From Ignatzschineria sp. RMDPL8A (GTDB lineage Bacteria; Pseudomonadota; Gammaproteobacteria; Cardiobacteriales; Wohlfahrtiimonadaceae): DNA of 64,000 nucleotides. The notes below the pieces were generated by a model that saw only the letters and a program-made list of their open reading frames with translations, was not told the origin of the DNA and did no database searches. Below, one piece after another: positions 12,188-49,902 of the stretch; the stretch's first letter is position 1; each line of letters opens with the position of its first letter. Position numbers and translations under genes: made by a program. Where the stretch lies: the NCBI RefSeq assembly GCF_029815055.1, contig NZ_JAPPWA010000002.1, positions 62,001 to 126,000 on the forward strand, written 5' to 3'.

Positions 12188-12517
12188 ATGTCATCACTCT
12201 TAATACTTTTAATCGCCATTGCATTTGAGGTGCTCGGCACTGTATGCATGCGACTTTCAGAAGGATTTGAGGTGATGTGGGCAGCGGGATTGATGCTTCT
12301 TTTTTACGGGGCATCGTTTGTGTCGTTTGTCTATTGCATACGGCGAATTGAGATCTCAATTGCCTATGCGCTCTGGACGGCGCTCGGAATGTTAGCCATC
12401 TCTCTTGTGAGCTTTATCTTTTTTGAAGAGGCGGTAACCTACCCAAAAGTGATTGCGCTCCTCTTCATAACAGCGGGGGTTGTGGGCTTAACGCTTGAGA
12501 GTGTCGAGGAGTCTTAG
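12188..12517 (+). CDS. Small multidrug resistance (SMR) family protein, glutamate-bearing partner
   Basis: 109 residues, four membrane helices. Helix 1 reads IAFEVLGTVCMRLSEGF and keeps the essential proton/substrate glutamate (E14 of EmrE); AYALWTALG keeps the conserved tryptophan of helix 3. AGGA stands before the ATG. It overlaps the next SMR gene by one base, the arrangement of two-component SMR pumps (EbrAB, MdtIJ) in which two oppositely inserted subunits form a heterodimer exporting cationic compounds. The substrate cannot be inferred. Confidence 0.85.
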   Translation: MSSLLILLIAIAFEVLGTVCMRLSEGFEVMWAAGLMLLFYGASFVSFVYCIRRIEISIAYALWTALGMLAISLVSFIFFEEAVTYPKVIALLFITAGVVGLTLESVEES

Positions 12518-12873
12518 TGGAATTTTTTACAGCGCTCCCATTGAGTGATCACAACGCATGGATTATATTGGTCGCCGCTATTTTTTGCAGCGCCATCGGT
12601 ACCACCTGTTTAAAGTTTTTAGCAAAAACGGGACAGTACCGCTACTTAATTGGTGTGATTGGCGGTTATGCCTGTTTTCTTATTTCGATTACGCTCGTTT
12701 TGAAGTGGATCGATATGGGGGTGGGCTATGCGGTGTGGTCCGGATTATCAACGCTCCTGATGACGCTCTCAGGCGTTTTCTTTTTTAAAGAGAAATTGGG
12801 GCTTAGAAAGGTGGGTAGCCTGATCTGTATAATTGTCGGAGTCGTGATTTTAAGCCTTGTAGACTCTTTTTAA
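12517..12873 (+). CDS. SMR family protein lacking the helix-1 glutamate
   Basis: 118 residues, four helices, starting at a GTG that shares its G with the preceding stop codon. Helix 1 is AAIFCSAIGTTCLKF: the position of the invariant glutamate is Ser. Helix 3 keeps GYAVWSGL. It must pair with its upstream neighbour if it works in transport, since an SMR subunit without the glutamate cannot by itself couple to protons. A more distant DMT/EamA-like helper function is the alternative. Confidence 0.8.
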   Translation: MEFFTALPLSDHNAWIILVAAIFCSAIGTTCLKFLAKTGQYRYLIGVIGGYACFLISITLVLKWIDMGVGYAVWSGLSTLLMTLSGVFFFKEKLGLRKVGSLICIIVGVVILSLVDSF

Positions 12874-15428: not shown

Positions 15429-15503
15429 GGGCTGCTAGCTCAGGGGTAGAGCAGTTGGCTTTTAACCAATTGGTCGAAGGTTCAAATCCTTCGCAGCCCA
15501 CCA
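15429..15503 (+). tRNA. tRNA-Lys (TTT), copy 1
   Basis: 75 bases with encoded CCA. The anticodon loop is CTTTTAA (anticodon TTT); the acceptor GGGCTGC pairs with GCAGCCC. It is identical to copy 2 and has its own promoter. Confidence 0.97.
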
Positions 15504-15607: not shown

Positions 15608-15682
15608 GGGCTGCTAGCTCAGGGGTAGAGCAGTTGGCTTTTAACCAATTGGTCGAAGGTTCAAATCCTTCGCAGCCCACCA
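15608..15682 (+). tRNA. tRNA-Lys (TTT), copy 2
   Basis: Identical over all 75 bases to copy 1, 179 bases downstream of it. The repeat extends only a few bases (TTT before, AA after) beyond the tRNA, so the spacer and promoter are not duplicated. A terminator follows. Confidence 0.97.
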
Positions 15683-49364: not shown

Positions 49365-49491
49365 AAGACTCTCCATAACAGATTGAAAATAAAGGAAATA
49401 AAACCATTATGACAAAGGGTTCCGCGAGCGGGTCTGTCAATCATGGCTTTATTGCTTTATATCAATAAGATCTGTTTGGAGAGTCCCTCAG

Positions 49492-49809
49492 TTACGACGC
49501 GAGTTTCATCAGCACAATCCCGCTTAAAATGAGGATAGCTGCGAGGGCGCGTAAAAAGGTAAAGGGCTCACCTAAAATGATTACGCCCACGATAAATGCA
49601 CCCACTGCGCCAATTCCCGTCCAGACCATATACGCCGTTCCGAGGGGCAATAATTTCATTGAATAGCTCAATAAAAAAACGCTGATCGCCATAGCGACAA
49701 CGGTGATAAGTGAGTAGCTGAGAATGGTAAACCCGTGTGAGAGTTTCATCGTATACGCCCAAACGACTTCAAAGAGTCCGGCGATTAAAAGAACAATCCA
49801 TGCATACAT
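49492..49809 (-). CDS. sugE: Guanidinium exporter SugE/Gdx (SMR family)
   Basis: 105 residues, four helices. Helix 1 reads GLFEVVWAYTMKLSHGF: the essential Glu and the W-A-x-x-M-K pattern of the Gdx subgroup, distinct from EmrE-type pumps. GTAYMVWTGIG in helix 3 is conserved too. Gdx proteins exchange guanidinium for protons. The guanidine-II riboswitch in its leader supports this role directly. Confidence 0.93.
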   Translation of the reverse strand: MYAWIVLLIAGLFEVVWAYTMKLSHGFTILSYSLITVVAMAISVFLLSYSMKLLPLGTAYMVWTGIGAVGAFIVGVIILGEPFTFLRALAAILILSGIVLMKLAS

Positions 49810-49831: not shown

Positions 49832-49902
49832 GTATGGGTCGTCCCAAACGATCACATCAGCGCATAATTGCTATGCTAGCTGGCAAACGGCCGTCCATCT
49901 GC
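49832..49902 (-). promoter_or_regulatory. Guanidine-II (mini-ykkC) riboswitch of sugE
   Basis: On the reverse strand two hairpins carry ACGR loops, the defining feature of this class. P1: GCAGATGG-ACGG-CCGTTTGC (49902-49883), 8 bp with wobble pairs. P2: GTTTGGG-ACGA-CCCATAC (49849-49832). A 33-base linker separates them and P2 lies close to the sugE start, so ligand-stabilised kissing loops would free the ribosome site. Confidence 0.88.

Follow-up and report, generated by a model that had tools for sequence, protein, structure and literature searches.

A guanidine-II (mini-ykkC) riboswitch that would turn on translation of a guanidinium exporter is the reading we favor, at a probability of about 95%, for the element at positions 49902 to 49835 of the minus strand, in the 5′ leader of gdx (sugE). 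Positions refer to the window, the whole 64,000-nt stretch of Ignatzschineria DNA that was analyzed. The anatomy of the element, its conservation and covariation, the type of the downstream gene, and the promoter geometry were established here, and the ligand, the kissing of the loops, the ON control, and the transport are assigned by homology. The same identity had been proposed in the original prediction, and it is supported by orthologous elements that score above the Rfam cut-off, by covariation, and by the paired ACGR loops. The element is an ordinary example of a known riboswitch class, unusual in having a long, hairpin-bearing linker that hides it from Rfam.

Layout of the gdx leader

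The original prediction gave positions 49832–49902 for the element and described two ACGR-loop hairpins preceded directly by a strong promoter. These coordinates were correct; the strand, which had not been given, is minus, and both the hairpins and the promoter were found. The promoter is of the sigma-70 type (49938–49910), with a −35 element TTGCCC (49938–49933), a 17-nt spacer, and a −10 element TATAAT (49915–49910), and it matches the consensus at 10 of 12 positions. Hairpin P1 (49902–49883), defined by its sequence, by the P1 hairpins of orthologs, and by covariation, begins at about the predicted transcription start and has the form GCAGATGG-ACGG-CCGTTTGC, with the loop at 49894–49891 and a stem of eight pairs, two of which are G-U. 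Hairpin P2 (49846–49835), defined by its sequence and by model alignment, is TGGG-ACGA-CCCA, with a 4-bp stem and the loop at 49842–49839. Both loops fit ACGR, each hairpin has two G-C closing pairs, and all of the invariant bases of guanidine-II are present. The 36-nt linker between P1 and P2 (49882–49847) contains an extra predicted hairpin, CAGC..GCATA-GCAAT-TATGC-GCTG (49882–49858).

The 3′ end of P2 lies 25 nt from the gdx start codon at 49809, and a weak putative Shine-Dalgarno sequence, GGA (49822–49820), lies 10 nt upstream of that codon. As is usual in the class, the element thus lies near the site of ribosome binding on the transcript of a predicted guanidine export gene. The folding stability of the whole leader was unremarkable (z = −1.16), and no terminator was found in it. 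Like the members of Rfam family RF01068, such as the leaders of E. coli sugE/gdx and of Pseudomonas aeruginosa SMR genes, the element has two ACGR hairpins with G-C closing pairs, precedes an SMR exporter gene, and lacks a terminator; unlike them, it has a 36-nt linker with its own hairpin and two G-U pairs in P1, and it scores below the gathering threshold.

The downstream gene

The gdx gene (49809–49492, minus strand) encodes a 105-aa protein of the SMR family (PF00893), a predicted guanidinium exporter as judged from profiles and a structure alignment. The SugE model gave by far the best score of the SMR models, 123.4 bits compared with 35–37 for the EmrE models, and this is just under the 126-bit cut-off of the NCBIfam SugE equivalog. 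The closest solved structure is Gdx-Clo (PDB 6wk5; 106 bits vs. 39 for EmrE), and the alignment to it is ungapped over 102 residues. Residues E14, W17, S43, Y60, and W63 correspond to E13, W16, S42, Y59, and W62 of Gdx-Clo, for which the roles of the substrate-site residues have been described (PMC7695847); Trp16 is conserved in Gdx proteins, whereas the Qac subtype has Gly or Ala at this position (PMC7695847). All of the substrate-site residues and the Gdx-specific tryptophan are shared with Gdx-Clo, and the two proteins otherwise differ by ordinary sequence divergence. Judged by these residues, the product belongs to the Gdx subtype of SMR proteins, as had been predicted.

Four other SMR genes are present in the genome, arranged as two adjacent pairs. 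The pair in the window (12188–12873, plus strand) is of another subtype than gdx; its genes overlap by 1 base, belong to no clear subtype, have their best matches to EmrE/EbrB and EbrA/EbrB at about 60 bits, and probably encode a heterodimeric SMR pair. The second pair is at G000:C2:1470673–1471298. Just downstream of gdx and on the same strand, positions 49376–48420 encode a 318-aa protein with no match in Pfam or NCBIfam. Elsewhere in the window, two tRNA genes of identical sequence lie in close tandem on the plus strand (15429–15500 and 15608–15679).

Orthologous leaders in the same family

Close gdx orthologs (63–72% protein identity) were found in three family genomes of other species (G006, G010, and G012). 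Among the other-species genomes of the family, exactly these three had RF01068 matches above the cut-off; the matches lay directly upstream of gdx, scored 33.8–40.1 bits, and agreed in position with the window element. Family genome G002 had only remote SMR relatives (31–42% identity) and no RF01068 match. Failure of the ACGR loops to be conserved in orthologous leaders had been named beforehand as grounds for rejecting the riboswitch; the loops were kept, in canonical form in the three family leaders (L004, L005, and L006) and in many distant orthologs as well.

The promoter spacer was 17 nt in all four family leaders (the window and L004–L006), and in all four the −10 element lay 5–7 nt upstream of the GCAGAT with which P1 starts. 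The four also resemble one another in the placement of P2 beside the gdx ribosome binding site. The three relatives differ from the window in having a linker of 12–17 nt, a longer and perfect P1 (GCAGATGGG-ACGA-CCCATCTGC in L004 and L005), a score above the Rfam cut-off, and another upstream gene. Compared with its closest relatives, the window P1 is one pair shorter and carries the two G-U pairs, and its pairing is maintained despite a 3′ arm unlike theirs. The upstream neighbor in the window is a divergent gene for 5-formyltetrahydrofolate cyclo-ligase, whereas L004–L006 have another gene there, transcribed in the direction of gdx. Because the promoter geometry, the riboswitch, and gdx were constant although the upstream genes differed, they have been retained together as one unit.

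Rfam detection and the long linker

An Rfam scan of the entire window at gathering thresholds found no riboswitch. A covariance-model search had been suggested as a check on the prediction. In a permissive scan, RF01068 scored the element at 12 bits, below its gathering score of 32, which is a search threshold rather than a biological feature, and the register was wrong, with P1 placed on the linker hairpin instead of on the true P1. The low score and the misplacement arise because the 36-nt linker holds an extra hairpin; the linker of the RF01068 model is only about 14 nt. The Guanidine-I and Guanidine-III models had no matches in the genome.

The missed threshold could be taken to mean that the hairpins arose by chance in a short intergenic stretch, which we consider exceedingly improbable. 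Paired ACGR hairpins occurred in only 1 of 5150 shuffled leaders. When both strands of the window were scanned for pairs of ACGR hairpins with at least four base pairs each, the single pair found was the one at 49902–49835. The pattern GGACGRCC-N20..50-GGACGRCC occurred once in the 2.18-Mb genome, and its reversed control did not occur there. In three other genomes, moreover, orthologous elements are found at the corresponding position, and on this evidence the idea that the element is spurious for having failed the Rfam threshold was dropped.

Another reading of the same score is that this is a degraded guanidine-II element with a drifted P1 and a lengthened linker; it would then bind guanidinium weakly or no longer switch, and gdx would be constitutive. 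The two G-U pairs in P1 and the weakness of the GGA ribosome binding site would fit such decay, as would a linker that is the longest among 45 paired leaders (range 10–36 nt). The invariant bases, however, are all intact, including the ACGR loops and the two G-C closing pairs of each hairpin, and P1 has kept its pairing even with a divergent 3′ arm. The linker length is within the published range of 7–40 nt for guanidine-II (PMC7544219), and the ACGG loop is present in the E. coli gdx riboswitch too (PMC13064478). Stems unrelated to that of the window were also found in the linkers of L098 (Paracoccus zeaxanthinifaciens) and of L100 and L103 (Aureimonas), which suggests that folded linkers arose more than once among guanidine-II leaders. 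We therefore regard degradation as very unlikely and retain the intact riboswitch as the preferred reading. Its linker hairpin probably just makes a long linker effectively shorter. A functional role for the hairpin in switching, for instance as a pre-organizing spacer or a second regulatory arm, which would mark a structured-linker subtype of guanidine-II under-detected by current covariance models, seems unlikely.

Wider survey and covariation

We scanned 103 loci encoding Gdx relatives for paired ACGR hairpins and found them in 45; three of these positives were copies from the window's own species, and without such copies the count was 42 of 100, compared with the 1 in 5150 obtained for shuffled leaders. 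Under the strict criterion, many of the remaining loci had just one hairpin, and none was seen at most of the remote SMR relatives (those with less than about 50% identity). At one locus (L094) a clear guanidine-II pair lay about 150 nt upstream of the matched gdx start rather than about 55 nt, so that this locus differs in its start or in its gene order. For 29 aligned hairpin pairs, the covariation score was 0.398, compared with 0.175 for shuffled alignments and at most 0.157 for slid controls; compensatory changes support both the P1 and the P2 stems, far above both controls. The best match in the window to a covariance model (R1) made from 25 relatives, with the window species excluded, was this element, at 16.8 bits and an E-value of 0.017 that is rough owing to shortened calibration. 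The R1 alignment had both ACGR loops in register.

Proposed mechanism

In the class, two kissing ACGR loops bind guanidinium and exert translational ON control (PMC5486947, PMC7544219, PMC9561414). By analogy, transcription would begin at the promoter directly upstream of P1, and guanidinium, when it accumulates, would be bound by the P1 loop (ACGG) and the P2 loop (ACGA), which would kiss through their C-G bases. The kissing loops would keep P2 folded and the ribosome binding site open, allowing Gdx to be made and guanidinium to be exported in exchange for protons. The absence of a terminator from the leader is in keeping with translational control.

A P0 helix has been proposed for the P. 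aeruginosa guanidine-II leader; since P1 begins at about the predicted transcription start, the 5′ flank for such a helix is absent here. Folding with the first 42–45 coding bases suggests a different OFF state, in which P2 would, without ligand, compete with an alternative fold: the 5′ arm of P2 can pair with codons ~4–8, and this pairing would enclose the ribosome binding site and start codon. Pairing of this kind competed with P2 to some degree in 4 of 4 family members (L003–L006, the loci used for this test, as start codons are inexact at the others). The OFF-state fold of the window was indistinguishable from those of synonymous shuffles (21 of 60).

Implications

These results add another well-supported predicted unit for guanidine sensing and export. 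They also show that real guanidine-II riboswitches with long folded linkers escape the standard Rfam model, so that counts of the class are probably somewhat low.
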